This document shows, one piece after another, positions 24,849-33,909 of a stretch of DNA of 64,000 bases. The position numbers were made by a program, and so were the translations under genes. Numbering within the stretch: position 1 is the first letter of the stretch; the number at the start of each line of letters is the position of its first letter. Under the pieces are notes generated by a model. That model saw only the letters and a list, made by a program, of their open reading frames with translations, made no database searches and was not told the origin of the DNA. Origin of the DNA: Archangium primigenium (GTDB lineage: Bacteria; Myxococcota; Myxococcia; Myxococcales; Myxococcaceae); the NCBI RefSeq assembly GCF_016904885.1, contig NZ_JADWYI010000001.1:8241224-8305223 (forward strand), read 5' to 3'.

Positions 24849-24926
24849 TGACATGTCATTGCTCACGCCGTGGCCAAGGTCGGAGAGACCCGCGGCATGG
24901 ACAAGTCGGACGGTGTCGTCTATCCA
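24849..24926 (+). promoter_or_regulatory. Palindrome and promoter of pilin-like gene 1
   Basis: The perfect palindrome TGACATGTCA is at 24849-24858. Further down are -35 TGGACA (24898-24903), a 17-base spacer and -10 TATCCA (24921-24926). The same elements, nearly identical in sequence, precede pilin-like gene 2, which makes the assignment stronger than a single-site prediction. Confidence 0.65.
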
Positions 24927-24951
24927 GCGCCTCGGCCTGGCCTTGCCAGCA

Positions 24952-25605
24952 ATGTCTCACATTCAATCACGGACATCGGACGGCGCCCGCGTGACTCATC
25001 TTCCTCCACAGTCCCCCCCGAAGCGAAGCGGCCTCACCCTCATCGAGGTCGCGATGGTGCTCGCCCTCGCCGCCGTGGTGATCGGGGGCGTGCTGACGCT
25101 CTATCTCAGCACCAGCAACCAGCGAAAAAACACGGAATCAATCGCCGCCGCGCTCTCGGGCGTCCAACGCTTGCTCGCGCTGCTCGCGGGGACGAAGGCG
25201 GACCCCCACGCCTTCACCGCCGACAACATCGTCATCCACAGGGCCAGGATCCTGCCCGAAGAATACTGGCGCCCTGACGACGCGAGCGTCCCCAACGGCG
25301 CCGGAAAGTATGTCCTCCCCAACGGCGCCGGCGTGACGGTCTATCCCGCGACGGAGAGTGGCCCTCCTGGCGGGCTCATCTGGAGCATGACGTTCAAGGA
25401 CGCCAAGAGCTGCATGGCGGTGGGGAAGGAAAACCTCTTCGCGGACAGTCTGCTCGTTCAGGACGCGCAGACCGGAGGGCGGACCCAGACCATTCGCTCC
25501 AGGGATGCCTCCGGGAAGATCGCTTTCGACATGCGCGCGCTGGTCCAGGCATGCGCGGACCCGGCAACTGGTGTCCGGAACATCCGCTGGATTTTTGTCC
25601 CCTAG
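24952..25605 (+). CDS. Type IV pilin-like / pseudopilin protein 1
   Basis: The product is 217 residues from ATG 24952. A conserved in-frame GTG at 24991 would give the more usual 14-residue leader (VTHLPPQSPPKRSG). Prepilin peptidase would cut after KRSG, giving a mature N-terminus LTLIEVAMVLALAAVVIGGV with Glu at +5. A 25-residue hydrophobic helix and the STSNQRK turn follow. The globular part has Cys in DAKSCMAVGK and VQACADP, likely a disulfide pair. It is a paralog of the gene at 28862. No pilus assembly genes lie nearby, so it may serve as a minor pilin or secretion pseudopilin. Confidence 0.78.
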   Translation: MSHIQSRTSDGARVTHLPPQSPPKRSGLTLIEVAMVLALAAVVIGGVLTLYLSTSNQRKNTESIAAALSGVQRLLALLAGTKADPHAFTADNIVIHRARILPEEYWRPDDASVPNGAGKYVLPNGAGVTVYPATESGPPGGLIWSMTFKDAKSCMAVGKENLFADSLLVQDAQTGGRTQTIRSRDASGKIAFDMRALVQACADPATGVRNIRWIFVP

Positions 25606-25665: not shown

Positions 25666-28209
25666 ATGCGCACGCCGACCGACCGCCATCTGCCGCCCGA
25701 CCGCGAGGCGTTCCGCTCCGCCGAGCCCCCCACCGGGCGCGTCCTCGTCATCGCCCCCACGCGCGCGGCGTGCGAGACCATCGAGCTCGCGCTCGGGCTG
25801 CACCTGGAGACCTACCTCGAGACGCACCACGGCCCGCGGGTGCGCGCGTTGGCCCGGGCCGGCGCGGGCTTTGGCATCGTGGCCGGAACGGGGACGGGGA
25901 AGACGCTGGCCATCCGGCTCATCGCCGAGGAAGTGGTCGGCCAGGCGGGCACGGTTCCGCTCCGGGTGGGCGTGGTGAACCGCGAGCGCGAGGCCACGCC
26001 CGAGCTGCCCACCTGGAACGTCATCATCGTGACGACCGGCATCGCGCGGCGCTGGTTCCAGAACGGCGACATCCTCCCGCACGACACGCTCGTCATCGAC
26101 GAGATCCACCAGACATCGGCGGAGCTGGAGCTGTGCCTCGCGCTCGGCAAGCGCGCGGGCTGCCGCTTCATCTGGCTGTCCGCCACCGTGGACCCGGCGC
26201 TCTACGCGCGCTACCTGGACAGCGCCGACGTGCTCGAGGTCCAGGCGTTCGATCCAAGGAAGGTGGCCACCGTCACGCTCGTGCGCCGCGAGCCACTCGC
26301 CTTCCTCGATGCGACCTTCCTGCTCGCCGTGGAGAAGGAGCGGCGGGGGGTGGGCGTCTTCCTTCCCACGCGGGCGGCGGTCGAGCAGGCGGCCCTGCAC
26401 ACGCGCACCCTCGAGCCGCGCATCCACGCGGCGCACTACCACGGCGGGGAGCCCCTGCGCGCCCTCCGGCCGTTCCTCGAGGGCCCGCCCCCCCTGCCCT
26501 ACCTGCTCGCCATGACGGCCGCGGGCCAGAGCGCGCTCAACGTACAGGGGCTCGACACCGTCGTCATCGAGGACTCGCGCTTCGCCAACGTCATCGAGCG
26601 CGGGCGCAACGTCCTCACGCGCGTGCCCCTGGGCAACAACGAGCTGCTGCAGATGGCCGGGCGCGTCCATGGCCGCGTGGAGGGGGGCCGCGTCTTCATC
26701 CTGAGCCAGCGCGAGCTGGACTTCTTCGCGCTCCGTCCCACCGGGCCCGAGTTCCAGCTCGCCGGGGACCCGGAGCGCGTGGCGCTCACCGCCGCCGCCC
26801 TGGGCGTCCGGGCCGATACGCTGGACCTGCCCGTCCCGCTCGATGTGCCCACCTACCGCCGCGTGTTCCAGCGGCTCCAGGCGCGCGGCATCGTCGATGA
26901 GCAGGGACGGCTCACCTCCTACGGGCGTGCCGTCGAGACCCTCCCAGTGGAGCGGGCCTGGGCGGAGCTGCTCGTCCAGGCGGAGGACTCCCTGCTGCCC
27001 TTCCTCGCCGTGTGCAGCGCCATCGACTCGCTGCACCGCATGACCCGCGAGGCGCGGGACCTGGCGGGGGTGGAGGTCGCGGGGAGCGACCACCTCACCG
27101 CCTACGCCCTCTACGCCGAGGCGTACCAGGAAGCGGGCTTCATCGGGGAGGTGTACGGGCTCGCGCGCCACCTGTTCCACGCGGAGAAGCTGGAGCGCTG
27201 GGCCGAGCGGCGCGGCGTGCTCGTGAAGGCCCTCGAGGAAGCGGCCCTGGTGACGGCGGGGGTCTACCGGAGCGTGGGGGTCGCCCTGCCCGAGCACCTG
27301 CCCCCCGTGGACGGGGACGTGTACCGCCGCTTCGCGGACCTGCTCGCGCGGGTGATGCCCTTCGACCTCGTCATCGACGAGCGGACGGCCGCGGGCGAGC
27401 AGGCGCGCGTCGCGAAGACGAGCGTGTGTGGCAACTGGGGCGCGGTGACGGGGGTGCTCCGCTACTTCGCCGACCGCTCGGGGACTCCGCATGCGTCCAT
27501 CGACGGCACCCACCTCCCGGCGGACCTGTTGAGGACGTACGCGCACCGCGCCGAGGCGGGGATCCTCTACGATCCGTGGCACCTGTCCCTGGTGGTCGAG
27601 TGGCGCGTGACGTCCGCGGGCTTCGAGCTGGAGCGCGAGCGCGAGGTGCTGTCCACCTGGGGGCCCGAGCGGGTGGACCGCGCACGGCATGCGCTCGCGG
27701 AGGCGATGGCGCGCGGCGAGGCGGAGCATCCAGCGGTGCGTCGCAACCAGCCGGGAATCGACGAGGTGCGCGAGGTGTGGCGCCGCTCGGGCGGACGCAC
27801 GGCGAAGCTCGGTGTACCCGAGCTGACCGCCCTCTACGCGGCCCAGCTCGGAGACGTCACGTCGATGGACGCATTCCATGCCCACCCGTTGGCGCTCGAC
27901 CTGGAGGCGGTACTGCCGCGCGAGGTCCGCGAGCGCTTCCTCGCGCTGCCGGACACGGTGGACCTTCACGGTGAAAGGGTGGAACTCGACTACGAGGTGG
28001 AGCGGGACGAGCACGGGACCCCCTTCGGGGTGGTCTGGCTCCACCTGTCCGAGGAGCTCGCTCGCACGCTCGTGGAGGAGGACCTCCCGCTGGTCGACCG
28101 GCCCGTGCGCCTCCTCGTGGGCCACGGGCGCGACGCCGTGCGCGCCGACACCCTGTTCGAGCTCCAGGAGCTGCTCGACCTGATGGACCCGTCCGACGGG
28201 TTCGATTGA
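25666..28209 (+). CDS. DEAH-type superfamily 2 helicase (HrpA/HrpB-like)
   Basis: The product is about 847 residues. The start is ATG 25666; a GTG at 25651 is an alternative. Motifs: Walker A GTGTGKT (74-80), Walker B as DEIH (145-148, the DEAH-box variant), motif III SAT (172-174), and motif VI QMAGRVHGR (about 325). A ratchet/winged-helix-like segment (LQARGIVDEQGRLTSYGRAVETLPV) follows. The C-terminal 350 residues are unlike the HrpB C-terminus I know. Expected role: NTP-dependent RNA unwinding. It lies between the two pilin-like paralogs, 60 bp after the first. Confidence 0.85.
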   Translation: MRTPTDRHLPPDREAFRSAEPPTGRVLVIAPTRAACETIELALGLHLETYLETHHGPRVRALARAGAGFGIVAGTGTGKTLAIRLIAEEVVGQAGTVPLRVGVVNREREATPELPTWNVIIVTTGIARRWFQNGDILPHDTLVIDEIHQTSAELELCLALGKRAGCRFIWLSATVDPALYARYLDSADVLEVQAFDPRKVATVTLVRREPLAFLDATFLLAVEKERRGVGVFLPTRAAVEQAALHTRTLEPRIHAAHYHGGEPLRALRPFLEGPPPLPYLLAMTAAGQSALNVQGLDTVVIEDSRFANVIERGRNVLTRVPLGNNELLQMAGRVHGRVEGGRVFILSQRELDFFALRPTGPEFQLAGDPERVALTAAALGVRADTLDLPVPLDVPTYRRVFQRLQARGIVDEQGRLTSYGRAVETLPVERAWAELLVQAEDSLLPFLAVCSAIDSLHRMTREARDLAGVEVAGSDHLTAYALYAEAYQEAGFIGEVYGLARHLFHAEKLERWAERRGVLVKALEEAALVTAGVYRSVGVALPEHLPPVDGDVYRRFADLLARVMPFDLVIDERTAAGEQARVAKTSVCGNWGAVTGVLRYFADRSGTPHASIDGTHLPADLLRTYAHRAEAGILYDPWHLSLVVEWRVTSAGFELEREREVLSTWGPERVDRARHALAEAMARGEAEHPAVRRNQPGIDEVREVWRRSGGRTAKLGVPELTALYAAQLGDVTSMDAFHAHPLALDLEAVLPREVRERFLALPDTVDLHGERVELDYEVERDEHGTPFGVVWLHLSEELARTLVEEDLPLVDRPVRLLVGHGRDAVRADTLFELQELLDLMDPSDGFD

Positions 28210-28247
28210 GCACCGCGAGGAAGTCCGTGTACACCGCGTCGCGCCTC

Positions 28248-28276
28248 GAATCGAGGACCGAATCTGTCCGCGATTC
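28248..28276. promoter_or_regulatory. Operator copy shared with the WYL/GFA intergenic region
   Basis: 11-bp arms (left ending GAGGAC, right starting GTCCGCG) are symmetric at 10 of 11 positions around a 7-base centre. It ends 69 bp before ATG 28345. The arms, centre and the following 30 bases are nearly identical to 33815-33870 between the WYL regulator and the GFA gene. Confidence 0.7.
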
Positions 28277-28344
28277 CTCCTACCTTCTTCTGGTCACCGG
28301 GTGAGCCCAAGGGCCCGTCCCCCAGATTCCAGGAAATGGCACAC

Positions 28345-28761
28345 ATGCTCGACGCACTGACTCGCATCAACTGGCTCGCCGTCCTCGCGGCGACCGTCGC
28401 GGCCACCGGACTCGGTGGCGTGTGGTTCACGGCCCTGTTCGGCAAGACGTATGCGACCGTCCTCGGCCGGGCCTACGATCCGAAGGCGAAGCCCGCCCCC
28501 CTCTTCATCGTGGGGCCCATGGTCTGCTCGCTGGCCGCCATCATCACCAGCGCGCTCCTGATGAAGGCCCTGAACCTCTCCTCGGCCGGGGAGGCCCTCG
28601 CCTTCGGAGCAGTCGTGGGCCTGGGCTACTTCGTCGCGACCATGGCGAACACGGCCATCAACCCCAACATGCCCCGCCCGTTGATGTACAGCCTGGTCAG
28701 CGGACCTTACTTCTTCCTCATGAGCATCAGCACCAGCCTCATCCTCGTGGCGATGCCTTAG
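28345..28761 (+). CDS. DUF1761-family membrane protein
   Basis: The product is 138 residues with four membrane helices (INWLAVLAATVAATGLGGVWF, LFIVGPMVCSLAAIITSALL, ALAFGAVVGLGYFVATMANTA, LVSGPYFFLMSISTSLILVA). The INW...GxxWF..LFGK pattern is characteristic of DUF1761. The ATG at 28345 is chosen over 28336 because AGGAA (28331-28335) abuts the earlier ATG. It also matches the spacing from operator to ATG seen for the GFA gene (76 versus 75 bases from the GTCC arm). Function is unknown. It is probably controlled by the WYL regulator encoded at 32798-33799. Confidence 0.82.
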   Translation: MLDALTRINWLAVLAATVAATGLGGVWFTALFGKTYATVLGRAYDPKAKPAPLFIVGPMVCSLAAIITSALLMKALNLSSAGEALAFGAVVGLGYFVATMANTAINPNMPRPLMYSLVSGPYFFLMSISTSLILVAMP

Positions 28762-28763
28762 AT

Positions 28764-28834
28764 TGACATGTCACTGACGCATCAGGGGTGAGCGGACCCG
28801 CGGAGTAGACAAGTCGGGCCGTGTCGTCTATCCA
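28764..28834 (+). promoter_or_regulatory. Palindrome and promoter of pilin-like gene 2
   Basis: TGACATGTCA at 28764-28773 begins right after the DUF1761 stop. The -35 TAGACA (28806-28811), a 17-base spacer, and -10 TATCCA (28829-28834) follow. It is the counterpart of the control region of pilin-like gene 1. Confidence 0.65.
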
Positions 28835-28861
28835 GACGCTCCAACTCGGCGTTGCGAAGCA

Positions 28862-29485
28862 ATGCCTCGCTTCCCCTCACGTGCATTGGACGGCGCCCTC
28901 GTGACCCACCTGCATCCCCCCCGCTCTCCCAGACAACGCGGTCTCGCCCTCATCCAAGTCGCCATCGTTCTGGCCATCGCCGGGGTGGTGATCGGAGGAG
29001 TAGTGGTCCTTTATCTGTCGACCTCCAACCAGCGCAAGATCACAGACACCTCGCAGCTCATCGTCTCCGCCGTCCAGAAAATCTCCGACCTGTTCCAGGG
29101 AAAGAACATGAAGGAGCTGACCGGTCAGGTCGCCGTGGACTTTGGCGCCCTCCCCAAGACCTACGCAGACGGCAATGCCAGATACGACCTGCCCATCGCT
29201 CCCGCCAAGATGACGTTTGGTGCGACAGACTTCAGCCCTGGTCGCAACCTTGGCGTCATCAGCGTCGGACCGCTCGCGTCGGATCAATGCATCGCCCTGG
29301 GCAAGCTGGACCTGGGGGATGTCGTGAAGTATGTCACCGTCAGCACGCAGGCGGTTTTCACGGAAAAATCAGAGGCGGACCTGGCCGCGCGGTCCGTCAA
29401 GAATGCCCAAGGCGACGTGCCCATCGCCGCCCTCGGGAAGGCATGCACGGAAGACTCCTACGTTAGCTACTACTTGCAGAACTGA
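28862..29485 (+). CDS. Type IV pilin-like / pseudopilin protein 2, Glu5 replaced by Gln
   Basis: The product is 207 residues from ATG 28862. A GTG at 28901 gives a 14-residue leader and aligns with the alternative start of paralog 1. The cleavage region is RQRG followed by LALIQVAIVLAIAGVVIGGV: Gln stands where nearly all type IV pilins have Glu at +5. The helix and STSNQRK turn match paralog 1, as do the cysteine contexts (DQCIALGK, GKACTED). The middle domain has diverged. It has its own promoter, so it is not in an operon with the helicase. Confidence 0.78.
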   Translation: MPRFPSRALDGALVTHLHPPRSPRQRGLALIQVAIVLAIAGVVIGGVVVLYLSTSNQRKITDTSQLIVSAVQKISDLFQGKNMKELTGQVAVDFGALPKTYADGNARYDLPIAPAKMTFGATDFSPGRNLGVISVGPLASDQCIALGKLDLGDVVKYVTVSTQAVFTEKSEADLAARSVKNAQGDVPIAALGKACTEDSYVSYYLQN

Positions 29486-29511
29486 ACCTTGAGCCAGGGC
29501 CGCGCGGGACG

Positions 29512-30252
29512 TCACGGGCCGAGCAGCACGTCCCGCAGGAGCGTGAACGTCGCCGCCGGATCCTGGAGCTGCATGTCGTGGTGCAGGTGGGAGAGCCTGC
29601 GCACGTCCCACCCGAACCCCGTCAGGGCCGTGGCCAGCCCCTCGGGCAGCACGGCCTTGCTGTCCGCGGAGAGCACGACGGTGGAGGGAACCGGGGGCCG
29701 GGCGGCGGCCACCGGGTGGAAGGCGATGTCCCGGAAGATGCCAATCGCCATCCGTTTGTCGAAGCGCTTCGTCGCGTCCGCCATGAGGCGCCGCGTGCGC
29801 TCCGGGTAGCCCTTGCGCGCCGCCGCGCTCGCCCGCGCGGTGAGGAGCGCGGCCACGCCCAGGGTCAGCGCGGGCACCGCCCAGAACAGCCGGCCCCGGA
29901 GCCCGGTGGTCGGCAGGCCCAGTTGGAAGCCCGGGTCCAGGTACACCGCGTGGCCGGGCCGCAGGCGCTCCACCGCCGCCGCGAGCACCGCGCCCCCGAG
30001 CGAGTGACCCACGACGACGTCGAGGTCGTGCGGCAGGGTCTCGACGAGATCATCGGCGAACTCGGCGAGCGACCACGACTCCGCCCGCGCGCTGCGGCCA
30101 TGGCCCCTCAAGTCGGGCGCGAACACCGTCACCTGGCCCGAGGCACGGAGTTGCTCGATGAAGGGCTCCCAGGTGGACGCATCCGCACCGAGTCCATGCA
30201 CCAGGCCGATGCGGCGGGGGCCGCTCCCCACGATCGTCGTTTCGAGACGCAT
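29512..30252 (-). CDS. Alpha/beta hydrolase
   Basis: The product is 246 residues from ATG 30252. It shows the fold signature VHGLGADASTWEPFIEQL, APDLRGHGRSARAE and the nucleophile elbow VGHSLGGAVL (Ser in GHSLG), with a C-terminal LSHLHHDMQLQDP supplying the His. No signal peptide; probably cytosolic. Between the core strands lies a mildly hydrophobic cap (LFWAVPALTLGVAALLTARA). The substrate cannot be predicted. It diverges from the threonine-aldolase-like gene, with 52 bp between starts. Confidence 0.85.
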   Translation of the reverse strand: MRLETTIVGSGPRRIGLVHGLGADASTWEPFIEQLRASGQVTVFAPDLRGHGRSARAESWSLAEFADDLVETLPHDLDVVVGHSLGGAVLAAAVERLRPGHAVYLDPGFQLGLPTTGLRGRLFWAVPALTLGVAALLTARASAAARKGYPERTRRLMADATKRFDKRMAIGIFRDIAFHPVAAARPPVPSTVVLSADSKAVLPEGLATALTGFGWDVRRLSHLHHDMQLQDPAATFTLLRDVLLGP

Positions 30253-30304
30253 GCGGCCGAGCCTATCCCTCCGGAGCGGCCGAGCCCATGCCAAGCTCGT
30301 CTCC

Positions 30305-31519
30305 ATGAACCCTCGACACCTCAGCCGGGGAGAGTTCCTCTCCCTCACGAGCCTGTTGGCCGGCTCCTCGCTGCTCCCCCGCCGGGCGGACGCGGCCCCC
30401 AAACCCACCGCGAAGCCCGCGCCCCCGCCGCCGGAGCCCCCGCAAGGTGACAGCCTGCGGCGAAGCTGCCGCGCCACGTTCACCGGCAGCACCCCCGAGG
30501 ACGCGGGCACCGAGCTCATCCGCCTGGGCGAGTGGATTCGCGACCAGGGCCTGCCCTCGGATGCGTATGGGCAGAGCGCGTTCATCCAGGGCTTCGAGCA
30601 GAAGATCGCGGAACGGCTCGGCTTCGAGGCGGGGTGTTTCATGCCCACCGGCACCATGGGCCAGCTCATCGCGCTGCGCATCTACGCGGACGAGGGCGGC
30701 ACCCGCACCGTGGGCCTCCATCCCTCCTCCCACCACGTGTTGCACGAGAGTGACAGCCACACCGTGCTCCATGGGCTCCAGCCGGTGGTGCTCTGCCCCT
30801 GGACCCGGCCCGTGCTCGCGGACGACGTGCGCAACGCGCGCGAGCGCCTGGGCACGCTCAGTGTCGAGTTGCCCGTGCGCTGGCTCGGAGGACAGCTCCA
30901 GACCTGGGAACAGCTCGAGGAGCTCAAGCGCACGTGCCGCGAGCGGGGGGTGAAGCTGCACATGGATGGCGCCCGGTTGTGGGAGAGCCAGCCCTTCTAT
31001 GGCCGCTCGTACGCGGACATCTGCCGGGGCTTCGACTCGGTGTACGTCTCCTTCTACAAGCGGGTGGGTGCCCTGGGCGGGGCCATGGTCGTCGGGAGCA
31101 AGGACTTCATCCGGACCGCGCGGATGTGGCGGCACCGGCACGGCGGCAACCTCTTCCAACTGCTGCCCTACGTCGCCTCGGCGGCGATGAAGCTGGACAC
31201 GGCCCTCGAGCGCCTGCCCCAGCAGGTGCGGCGCGCGAAGGCCCTGTCCGAGGCACTGGCCGCCGACTCCCGGCTCGTGGTGCTGCCCCGGCCCGCCCAG
31301 ACCAACATGTTCCGCGTCTTCCTGCGCGGCGACGCCGCCGAGTTCTCCCGCCGCCGGGATCGCATCGCGCGCGAGGACTCCCTCTGGCTGACGCACGGTT
31401 TCGGCCAGACCCGGGTCCCGGGGGTCGTCGATACGGAACTCCAGGTCGGCGAGGGCCTCGCGGGCCTCGAGGACGCCCAGGTCGTCCGGGCCTTCCTCCG
31501 GCTGCTCGACCCCGCCTGA
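30305..31519 (+). CDS. Threonine-aldolase-family PLP enzyme with export signal
   Basis: The product is 404 residues. Residues about 55-404 match the beta-eliminating lyase/threonine aldolase fold: MPTGTMGQLIALRIY, HMDGARLWE (Asp221), and VYVSFYKRVGALGGAMV with the PLP-binding Lys252. The first 31 residues (SRGEFLSLTSLLAGSSLL then RRADAAP) look like an export signal and resemble a Tat signal with one arginine changed (SRGEFL). A Pro-rich linker (33-46) follows. Export of a PLP enzyme is unusual, so the location needs testing. It would cleave a beta-hydroxy amino acid or a related substrate. Confidence 0.8.
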   Translation: MNPRHLSRGEFLSLTSLLAGSSLLPRRADAAPKPTAKPAPPPPEPPQGDSLRRSCRATFTGSTPEDAGTELIRLGEWIRDQGLPSDAYGQSAFIQGFEQKIAERLGFEAGCFMPTGTMGQLIALRIYADEGGTRTVGLHPSSHHVLHESDSHTVLHGLQPVVLCPWTRPVLADDVRNARERLGTLSVELPVRWLGGQLQTWEQLEELKRTCRERGVKLHMDGARLWESQPFYGRSYADICRGFDSVYVSFYKRVGALGGAMVVGSKDFIRTARMWRHRHGGNLFQLLPYVASAAMKLDTALERLPQQVRRAKALSEALAADSRLVVLPRPAQTNMFRVFLRGDAAEFSRRRDRIAREDSLWLTHGFGQTRVPGVVDTELQVGEGLAGLEDAQVVRAFLRLLDPA

Positions 31520-31526
31520 ACCCGGC

Positions 31527-32735
31527 TCACGGCTCGGGGGGACGCAGCCGGGCGGTGACGCGCTCCAGGTGCCGCTGGAAGGCGGGACGCGCGGGCTCGA
31601 GCGCGAGGGCGCGCGTGTAGCTGTCACGCGCCTCGGCCCATTGGCCCGCGGCCTCCAGGGCTTCGCCCAGGCTGTCCCAGGCATTGCCGGAGTGGGCATA
31701 CCACTCGGCATTGCGGCGCAAGGCGGCGAGCGCGGCGCGCGTGTGGCCCTGCTCCAGCAACTGGTAGCCCACGCCGTTGAGCATGTCCTCGGCGGGGTGC
31801 AGCTCCAGGCCGAGCCGTTGGGACAGGCGCGCGTAGTTCGCCTCGACCTTCGCCAGTGTCCCGGGCGTCGCCGGGTACTCGGGCACGATCCATCCCTCGA
31901 AGAGCGACTCCAGGCCCTCGGCGAGGGTGCGGTGGGGCGTGCTGACGTGGTGCTCCTTCTTCAGGAAGGCGTAGTGCCACCGCAGCCCCGGGGGGCGCGT
32001 GCGCGAGAGGGTGCGCGCGAGCCCCTGGATGGGCGCGAGCATGGCGGGCCCTTCGTTGCCCATGCTCATGTAGAGGAAGCGCTCGGGTGGAGGCAGTCGT
32101 CCGAGAGCCTGGGCCGCGTCTCGCGCCCACTGGCCATGGTTCCACCACAGGCTCGGGCTGCTGAGGATGAGGGCCTGGAAGGCCTGGGGCCGAGTCACCC
32201 AGGTCGACAGGCCGAACAGCCCGCCGTACGAGTGGCCCACGAGGATCCGATACGGCAGCGTGCGGTAGCGCGCTTCGATGCGGGGTCGCAGTTCCTCGTC
32301 CAGGAAGCGCAGGAACCGCTCCGCGCCGCCCGCCGAGGGCAGGGCCTGGGCGACCCGGATCGTGGGGGCGTTGGGCAGCCGGGCATCTCCCACCACGGGC
32401 GGGGTGAGATCCCTCGCCCGCTCCGTGTTCGAGATGCCCACGACGATCAACGGGGGGATGAACCCGCCCCGCGCCAGGAAGTCCACGAGCCCCGTGACGT
32501 GGTGGAAGTGCTCATCGCCATCCAACAGGTACAGGACGACATGACGCTCCGACGAGGCCTCGTAACCGGGCGGCAGATGGACGAGGAAGGACCGGTCCTC
32601 GCCGAGCGTGTCCGAGTGCAGGGTGAAGCGGGTCCCGAGGAAGAGGGGCTGTCCCTGCTCGACGGGCTCCGCGGACAAGGCCTCCCACGGCGGCAGCAGG
32701 GCGAGCAGAAGGATCGAGAGCGGAGCGAAGCGCAT
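31527..32735 (-). CDS. Secreted esterase (IroE/Fes-like) with C-terminal TPR
   Basis: The product is 402 residues. MRFAPLSILLLALLPPWEALS is a cleavable signal. The esterase domain (about 30-290) has FLVHLPPGYEASSERHVVLYLLDGDEHFHH, the elbow LVGHSYGGLFG, and LKKEHHVSTPHRTL with the catalytic His. This is the putative-esterase family that includes siderophore esterases. Residues about 300-395 contain two TPR units (GVGYQLLEQGHTRAALAALRRNAEWYAHSGNAWDSLGEALEAAGQWAEA). It is convergent with the aldolase-like gene, 7 bp apart. A role in releasing iron from siderophores is possible but not shown. Confidence 0.83.
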   Translation of the reverse strand: MRFAPLSILLLALLPPWEALSAEPVEQGQPLFLGTRFTLHSDTLGEDRSFLVHLPPGYEASSERHVVLYLLDGDEHFHHVTGLVDFLARGGFIPPLIVVGISNTERARDLTPPVVGDARLPNAPTIRVAQALPSAGGAERFLRFLDEELRPRIEARYRTLPYRILVGHSYGGLFGLSTWVTRPQAFQALILSSPSLWWNHGQWARDAAQALGRLPPPERFLYMSMGNEGPAMLAPIQGLARTLSRTRPPGLRWHYAFLKKEHHVSTPHRTLAEGLESLFEGWIVPEYPATPGTLAKVEANYARLSQRLGLELHPAEDMLNGVGYQLLEQGHTRAALAALRRNAEWYAHSGNAWDSLGEALEAAGQWAEARDSYTRALALEPARPAFQRHLERVTARLRPPEP

Positions 32736-32797
32736 GGCGGCGTCAGCGCACCCAGCCGATGACGCCCCACGGGATTGGGCGGGTCTGGGACGGAGGC

Positions 32798-33799
32798 TCA
32801 TCGATGCGGATTGTCGCATGACCGGGAGCTGCTCGAAGCGGGGGCGGCACCCGCGGCCCGGGCCAGGCGCTCGGACAGCCGTCGCAGGTGCTCGCGGAGC
32901 TCGGGCGGCTCGTGGACCTCGAAGTCGAAACCCGTGGCGCTCAGGAAGTACGTGAGCATCTCGAGGCTGTCCCCGCCCGTGCTCACGCGGCACCACCCCT
33001 CCCCTTCCTCCTCGATGCGCACGGCGACGGCGGACAACTGCTCGGAGACCACACGCGCCGGGGCCAGGAACGTCACCCGCGCGTGGATGCGGTAGACCTC
33101 CGTCGAGACGGCCTGAGAGACGTAGGCCGCCACGTCCTCGGAGGGCAGGGGCCGGGGCCGGAAGGCGCGTCCCGGCCGGGGCGCCGGACCGATGCGGTCG
33201 ACGCGGAAGGTGCGCCAGGCGTCCCGCTCCAGGTCATACGCCAACAGGTACCAGCGCGAGCGCGTGTGCACGAGGCGGTAGGGCTCCACCGACCGCTGGC
33301 TCGCCACGCCGTCCCGGTTGCCGTAGTCGAAGCGCAGCTGGACCTCGTCGCGGCAGCAGCCCGCGATCACCGCCAGCGCCTCGGCGTTCACGACGGGCCC
33401 CGAGTCCCCGAGCCGCACGCTCACCTTCTGTAGCGCGTTCACCTGCCGGCGCAGCCGCTTGGGCAGCACCTGTTCGAGCTTGCCGAGGGCCCGCACCGCC
33501 GCCTCCTCCACGCCCTGCACTGGACCGGTCGCCGCGGCGCGCAGGCCCACCGCGATGGCCACGGCCTCGTCGTCCTCGAGCGGCAGCGGGGGCAGCTCCT
33601 TGCCCGCGCCGAGCTGATAGCCGCCGCCCACGCCCCCCGCCGCGTGCACCGGGTAGCCCAGCGTCCGCAACCGCTCCACGTCCCGGCGGACGCTGCGCTC
33701 GGTGACCCCGAGCTGGTCCGCCAATTCCCCCCCGCCCCAGAAGCGCCGGGATTGCAGCAGGGACAGCACCTTGAGCAGCCGGGCGGAAGTCTGGACCAT
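32798..33799 (-). CDS. WYL-domain (YafY/DeoR-type) transcriptional regulator
   Basis: The product is 333 residues. The N-terminal HTH_11 reads ARLLKVLSLLQSRRFWGGGELADQLGVTERSVRRDVERLRTLGYPV. The wing is AAGGVGGGYQLGAGKELPPLPL. The WYL domain (about 140-220) includes VEPYRLVHTRSRWYLLAYDLERDAWRTFRVDRI. A WCX-like C-terminal extension ends it. WYL domains bind nucleotide-like or other small ligands. It is divergent from the GFA gene; a perfect 8-bp-arm palindrome 18 bp upstream of its start suggests it controls both, plus the DUF1761 gene, which has a copy of the site. Confidence 0.88.
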   Translation of the reverse strand: MVQTSARLLKVLSLLQSRRFWGGGELADQLGVTERSVRRDVERLRTLGYPVHAAGGVGGGYQLGAGKELPPLPLEDDEAVAIAVGLRAAATGPVQGVEEAAVRALGKLEQVLPKRLRRQVNALQKVSVRLGDSGPVVNAEALAVIAGCCRDEVQLRFDYGNRDGVASQRSVEPYRLVHTRSRWYLLAYDLERDAWRTFRVDRIGPAPRPGRAFRPRPLPSEDVAAYVSQAVSTEVYRIHARVTFLAPARVVSEQLSAVAVRIEEEGEGWCRVSTGGDSLEMLTYFLSATGFDFEVHEPPELREHLRRLSERLARAAGAAPASSSSRSCDNPHR

Positions 33800-33816
33800 G
33801 GCGAGCGCTCCTCACA

Positions 33817-33839
33817 TCGCGGACCGTATCTGTCCGCGA
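33817..33839. promoter_or_regulatory. Operator between the WYL regulator and the GFA gene
   Basis: Perfect arms TCGCGGAC (33817-33824) and GTCCGCGA (33832-33839) with a 7-base centre. It lies 18 bp before the regulator ATG and 71 bp before the GFA ATG, well placed for autoregulation and divergent control. The site plus about 30 downstream bases recurs at 28248-28300. Confidence 0.75.
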
Positions 33840-33909
33840 TTCTTCCTACCTTCTCCTTGTCACCGGGGCGAGCCCGAAAGCGCCGCCCCTCCGCCCAGGA
33901 GTTCCGACC

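Follow-up and report, generated by a model that had tools for sequence, protein, structure and literature searches.

Can a single WYL-domain regulator serve two genes that lie 5.6 kb apart, only one of which adjoins the gene of the regulator? The question is raised by a stretch of 64,000 nucleotides of Archangium primigenium (contig NZ_JADWYI010000001.1, positions 8,241,224 to 8,305,223; hereafter the window, meaning the whole stretch that was analysed). In this window, nearly the same operator-promoter block stands before a gene of the GFA family, back to back with the gene of a 333-amino-acid (aa) WYL protein, and again before a gene of a DUF1761 protein. An earlier reading made from the letters of the window (the sequence-only reading) had proposed that one WYL protein controls itself, the GFA gene and the DUF1761 gene. 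Our analysis supports this for the two latter genes and not for the regulator itself. We consider it quite probable that the WYL protein serves GFA and DUF1761 in trans as a two-gene regulon, as suggested by the co-occurrence of site and regulator among 96 family genomes, by the recognition-helix stretch TERSVRRD found in the regulators of both modules, and by sites that have outlived their neighbouring regulator gene.

The duplication of the block was found at both places where it had been reported. Without gaps, the GFA and DUF1761 blocks agree at 41 of 46 positions, and no other stretch on either strand of the window agrees with the GFA block at more than 26 of 46. The GFA-side operator is a perfect dyad with 9-bp arms around a 7-base centre, and the DUF1761-side operator matches in eight of its nine arm pairs, leaving one arm mismatch. 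Taken by itself in its loose form, the palindrome is not rare; with at most two mismatches, GGAC-N7-GTCCGCGAT has 8 matches in the window versus a mean of 5.03 in shuffles of the window, and at least 8 matches were reached in 13 of 100 shuffles. Distances of 75 and 76 bases to the start codons had also been given. Counted from the end of GTCC, the GFA start (33910) is 74 bases away and the second in-frame ATG of the DUF1761 gene (28345), which corresponds to the start predicted for a relative (G034), is 75 bases away. The earlier values are approximately right only if this ATG is used, whereas the listed DUF1761 start (28336) gives 66 bases.

The position of the site relative to a putative -10 hexamer is highly constant. 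We counted sites in the loci upstream of 80 of 81 WYL genes (L091 was too short), with the two window sites excluded. In the myxobacterial set, 17 of 21 genes are preceded by GGAC-N7-GTCC without mismatch, and in the other set (mostly Actinobacteria) 31 of 59, while random stretches carried it in 4.3% and 0.9% of cases, respectively; spacers of 3-6 and 8-11 bases in place of N7 gave 0-2 loci. The spacing to the -10 hexamer was then read from 63 rows, namely 61 loci with a well-placed site (at most one mismatch) and the two window sites, all remaining loci being dropped. TANNNT stands exactly 11 bases past GTCC in 18 of 21 myxobacterial rows (window sites included) and, among the 42 site-bearing loci of the 59 examined in the other set, in 40. 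At any other offset from 0 to 29 the hexamer was met once in each set. If the hexamer is placed at -12 to -7, the two arms come to lie at positions -27 to -24 and -38 to -35 (about -26 and -37). At -35, 13 of 21 myxobacterial rows have CCGAAT, and no -35 element is recognisable. A palindrome upstream of the target, with one arm at -26 and a fixed distance to the -10, is the geometry of the SiwR/DriD type, given the predicted -10 and transcription start. On the WYL side of the other set, 40 of 42 rows have NANNNT at 11 bases. Neither TANNNT nor NANNNT was found at the matching distance in any of the 21 myxobacterial rows (0/21), TANNNT standing at 16 bases in 5 of 21. Together with the sites of three relatives that stay with GFA (G036, G038 and G042, see below), this leaves the self-control that the sequence-only reading had proposed without support from the promoter sequences in the myxobacterial lineage.

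In the genome of the window (G000), the full layout GGAC-N7-GTCC-N11-TANNNT is present at three places, of which two are the window sites, versus one place for the reversed pattern. The third place (L184; C1:8034368-8034399) lies at the start of a 216-aa open reading frame (ORF) and differs in its centre and in the bases after GTCC; as the site is weak, L184 is an unproven candidate for a further target. The 22-base form, with TTC added, occurs exactly in this genome at the two window sites only. The same block before many unrelated genes, which had been named as an outcome that would speak against the sequence-only reading, is not what this pattern search gave (two sites and a weak third). 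When two mismatches were allowed, the 22-base form gave mostly noise in the same genome (23 matches versus 17 for the reversed control) and was set aside there.

Among the 96 family genomes, the 22-base form with at most two mismatches was matched 12 times, in 10 genomes, and the window sites were the only two at zero mismatches. All ten matches outside the genome of the window are flanked by a WYL gene and GFA, apart from two: at L030 the WYL gene is truncated, and at L025 a fusion relic replaces GFA. The 17-base form GGACCGNAYCTGTCCGC at zero mismatches gave 19 sites in 15 of the 96 genomes, and the gene downstream is GFA in 16 cases, DUF1761 in two (the window and G034) and a GFA-DUF1761 fusion relic in one. 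All 15 genomes fall within the 18 that have a WYL match at an E value of 1e-60 or better, among the candidates (at most 22) scored per genome. The remaining three of these 18 are G038, with a site before GFA at two differences, G092, with one difference, and G087, in which the site has diverged. Sites of the 17-base form at one mismatch were rejected as targets, being present in many genomes at rates like those of the reversed control; the one-mismatch form GGACCGAACATGTCCGC of G000, beside urease-like genes (named by eye), was likewise discarded.

The relatives show the regulator and its cargo in several arrangements. In G034, a WYL gene (76% identical) is divergent from DUF1761 (84% identical) across the same site; at the GFA locus of that genome, the site and GFA are kept and the WYL gene matches for about 15 codons and then stops (by eye). 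The single WYL match at the 1e-60 level in this genome of one contig lies at the DUF1761 locus, with none at the GFA locus. G034 is the mirror image of the window, with the WYL gene beside GFA cut short and the one beside DUF1761 intact. In G004 (C25; L122:10458-10538), a WYL gene lies opposite a 26-codon in-frame fusion relic, in which the N terminus of GFA is joined to the C terminus of DUF1761 behind an intact operator. Sites persist with the neighbouring WYL gene gone or cut in four genomes (G000, G032, G034 and G042). Contig C34 of G032 keeps the site and GFA with a WYL gene reduced to stretches like residues 1-35 and 241-313, an intact module being present elsewhere in that genome; in G042, the site and GFA are on one contig (C11) and the WYL gene on another, where the WYL-side site has decayed. 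A methyltransferase-like gene (by eye) stands between the WYL gene and the site in G036, and another ORF does so in G038, the site remaining beside GFA in both. Since sites are kept without an adjoining WYL gene, the site behaves as an element of the cargo promoter, which a WYL protein could serve from elsewhere.

How did the DUF1761 gene of the window come to have such a site with no WYL gene beside it? The sequences suggest that the block is most likely the remnant of a second regulator-cargo module and not a copied promoter. A WYL regulator seems to have been lost here with its promoter kept, because the left flank of the site still aligns to a WYL start and G034 has the intact pair. The 44 bases on the left of the DUF1761 site were aligned, with the operator as anchor, to the WYL 5' ends of eight references; an equally high score was reached by random stretches of the window in 0, 5, 1, 0, 77, 129, 3 and 125 of about 4,940 cases each. 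This relic is less certain than the sites, their geometry, the co-occurrence with the regulator and the mirror-image loss in G034, all of which can be read directly from the genomes.

Several observations weigh against the proposed explanation. The relic is short, and three of the eight references support it weakly (77 to 129 of about 4,940). When the left flank of the DUF1761 site was aligned locally and freely to five WYL 5' ends, the result was not significant, random stretches being as good in from 246 of 2,969 to 1,802 of 2,970 cases, and the anchored test was chosen after this result was known. The contig with the orphan site of G032 is a short draft one, and this genome is 4% contaminated. 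Among 22 WYL proteins placed in a tree, the copies beside DUF1761 in G034 and G004 group together (100/99); the GFA-side protein of the window joins these DUF1761-side proteins (95/91) and not the GFA-side copy of G033. The history is thus not that of a simple old pair of paralogs and involves recent duplication, transfer or gene conversion. The two window sites also have ATTC after GTCCGCG in common, and the full ATTC is present in none of the ten other 22-base matches, so that some conversion between the two sites is possible. Four-fold-degenerate sites of the window genes are 62-77% identical to those of relatives, and an operator identity of 23/25 in one pair is therefore only mildly above background; pairwise conservation was rejected as too weak an argument, the strength lying in the whole set of sites.

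Some of these observations would suit a history in which local duplication of a short segment, or gene conversion, within this genome placed a copy of the GFA promoter before DUF1761, with no WYL gene ever at that place. The exact 22-base form with ATTC is confined to the window sites among the 12 matches in 96 genomes, and the two sites are close neighbours at 5.6 kb. Such a copy would however leave unexplained the WYL and DUF1761 genes back to back over the same site in G034, the WYL gene opposite a relic with the DUF1761 C terminus in G004, and the anchored alignment of the left flank to a WYL 5' end, and we regard it as improbable. It is likewise a very doubtful reading that the DUF1761 site is a dead leftover on which no regulator acts. 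The arm mismatch and the apparent loss of the formerly adjoining regulator would fit a decaying site, but the core, the -10 and the spacing are intact, and the orphan or separated sites of G032, G034, G036, G038 and G042 are likewise kept with TANNNT at 11 bases (by eye), in contrast to the decayed WYL-side site of G042.

The regulator itself has conserved motifs. TERSVRRD is present in 19 of 22 WYL rows and is identical in the WYL copies of both modules; the arginine motif RTFRxDR is present in all 22 (with one F to Y and one V to I). In the 333-aa protein, this motif reads RTFRVDR and aligns to PafB and PafC, in agreement with the arginines of the WYL ligand site. PafB and PafC are also its best sequence matches among solved structures. 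The solved DriD structure was not among the six sequence matches to solved structures, which weighs against the proposed explanation. SiwR of Mycobacterium smegmatis is a homodimer for which activation and binding of single-stranded DNA have been demonstrated; its palindrome lies between -10 and -35, a GGA is conserved at -26, and the -26 region is required for activation (PMC10693628). DriD of Caulobacter crescentus has a site that overlaps -35 at a constant distance from the -10, with one bidirectional promoter (PMC12340889), PafBC works through sigma adaptation at -26, together with the housekeeping sigma factor (PMC6789036, PMC11804915), and two wHTH-WYL regulators of M. xanthus are raised by mitomycin C (PMC12288472).

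The present system resembles SiwR in the HTH-WYL-WCX gene adjoining its target, the palindrome between -10 and -35, the GGA at -26 and the WYL arginines, a likeness taken from the description of SiwR only. It differs in that the DinB/YfiT-like targets of SiwR are replaced by GFA and DUF1761, and in the actinobacterial set by EHN, ABC, MFS and other genes. With DriD it shares a (pseudo-)palindrome overlapping -35 at a fixed distance to the -10, the probable homodimer and, as at one bidirectional promoter of DriD, the place between regulator and target; the DriD targets are DNA-damage genes and the cargo here is different. With PafBC it shares the HTH-WYL-WCX architecture, the site at -26 and the closest solved sequences, whereas PafBC is a heterodimer with a non-palindromic motif that controls most DNA-damage-induced genes, and here the site is palindromic and no second WYL gene adjoins. 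The PafBC motif, GTCR-N11-TANNNT, has the same spacing as the sites described here. We take the 333-aa protein to be a probable new SiwR/DriD-like WYL regulator, and orthology to SiwR is not claimed. The titles and abstract beginnings searched named no WYL regulator of GFA or DUF1761, and no described member of this WYL subfamily was found in them.

The same regulon could also be governed by a repressor, in which case the WYL protein would cover -35 and block RNA polymerase until a ligand lifts it. BrxR- and CapW-type WYL regulators repress, WYL regulators of defence systems are known, and the solved BrxR chain is a weak match to the 333-aa protein (E 0.0066); the overlap of the site with the -35 region would suit occlusion as well. 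However, there would be little to block at promoters without a -35 element, where CCGAAT is the commonest sequence. The exact 11-base spacing to the -10 across two phyla fits contact with the polymerase, and PafB and PafC are activators. We consider a repressor unlikely, and an activator is favoured on the basis of promoter layout and protein similarity.

We propose the following course of events. Both blocks would be cargo promoters recognised by the 333-aa HTH-WYL-WCX regulator, probably as a homodimer. The lineage may once have had two modules, in each of which a WYL gene and its cargo (GFA in one, DUF1761 in the other) stood divergently over one site. The WYL gene beside DUF1761 would have been removed in this genome down to about 10 codons, and the surviving WYL protein would now act on DUF1761 in trans. 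The geometry suggests activation as in SiwR, DriD and PafBC, and the trigger would probably be a nucleic-acid ligand filling the WYL domain.

The coordinates of the features are given in Table 1. The domains of the WYL regulator are, in order and all above the cut-off, HTH_11 (residues 7-62), WYL (140-204) and WCX (237-313). The 852-aa ORF also has a sub-threshold wHTH-PRTase-associated match in Pfam, and the three other genomes of the genus have no match to it apart from a stretch of 73 residues in G033. Two ORFs with pilin-like N termini (24853-25605 and 28862-29485) flank the helicase-DUF1761 segment; one has the Pfam N_methyl motif, and the other was judged by eye and is without Pfam match. 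No clear defence domain was found among nine neighbourhood proteins compared to Pfam, the helicase-like ORF having the match mentioned above. PADLOC gave no defence system for the WYL protein and three ORFs that were scanned: the three ORFs had no match, and the WYL protein matched two generic WYL models and the Cas3c (E 1.6e-10) and AbiEii (E 0.0005) profiles.

Table 1 Features of the two loci, in positions of the window.
Feature	Position	Strand	Remarks
Helicase-like ORF, 852 aa	25651..28209	+	Sub-threshold DEAD-helicase match; occupies the place of the presumed lost WYL gene
Probable remnant of a lost WYL gene, 5' end (about 10 codons and leader)	28206..28249	-	Operator-anchored alignment; overlaps the end of the helicase-like ORF
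Predicted WYL operator before DUF1761	28250..28274	+	ATCGAGGAC-CGAATCT-GTCCGCGAT, 7-base centre
Putative -10 hexamer TACCTT, DUF1761 promoter	28281..28286	+	11 bases after GTCC
DUF1761 protein (PF08570)	28336..28761	+	Membrane protein by eye; alternative start 28345
WYL regulator, 333 aa	32798..33799	-	HTH_11, WYL and WCX (Pfam)
Predicted WYL operator between WYL and GFA	33816..33840	+	ATCGCGGAC-CGTATCT-GTCCGCGAT
Putative -10 hexamer TACCTT, GFA promoter	33847..33852	+	11 bases after GTCC
GFA-family protein (PF04828), 152 aa	33910..34368	+	Cysteine motifs SCQC, RCNCISC and FCGVC

Outside the myxobacteria the cargo varies, and the operator and its geometry are constant. Pfam was used to scan 38 of the 41 divergent genes of the other set (L058, L061 and L072 were dropped as their frame looked wrong, and L044 was without an ORF). 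These 38 genes include 24 EHN epoxide hydrolases, 8 ABC_tran proteins, 2 MFS proteins, one glyoxalase and one NmrA protein. In two Streptomyces loci (L047 and L082), the ABC_tran cargo is UvrA-like by eye and has a perfect GGAC-N7-GTCC site in front. The annotated cargo hints at a role in detoxification or in a damage response under stress. It is possible, and we put it forward tentatively, that a large unnamed subfamily of WYL activators extends over Myxococcota and Actinobacteria and uses GGAC-N7-GTCC as a -26/-37 element. In Actinobacteria, the divergent promoters would be mirror images (-10, 11 bases, operator, 11 bases, -10), with one dimer recruiting polymerase either way. Cargo genes (epoxide hydrolase, GFA, DUF1761, ABC, MFS) would be exchanged freely, and regulons of several genes would arise once duplicated modules lose one regulator.

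DUF1761 genes of the family are found in other settings as well. At 13 of 19 family DUF1761 loci (L100-L112), a different, short WYL regulator lies directly downstream; 12 of these 13 regulators are 60-75% identical to the L104 copy, and the palindrome TGCCAHCACGGTGGC lies 35-77 bases before the DUF1761 match in 10 of the 13 loci. These loci represent a second pairing of WYL and DUF1761 with another operator. G033 and G034 (L099 and L115) have a further DUF1761 copy (79%) without the WYL site, directly after a TetR-like gene (by eye).

For this WYL subfamily, the result is a predicted binding site together with a promoter rule that can be tested. It would place GFA and DUF1761, neither of which has a clear function, under one signal. 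Several of the genomes show how a local regulator may turn trans-acting, by duplication of the module, loss of one regulator and retention of both sites, and a simple prediction of targets from the operator may be possible in the actinobacterial relatives.

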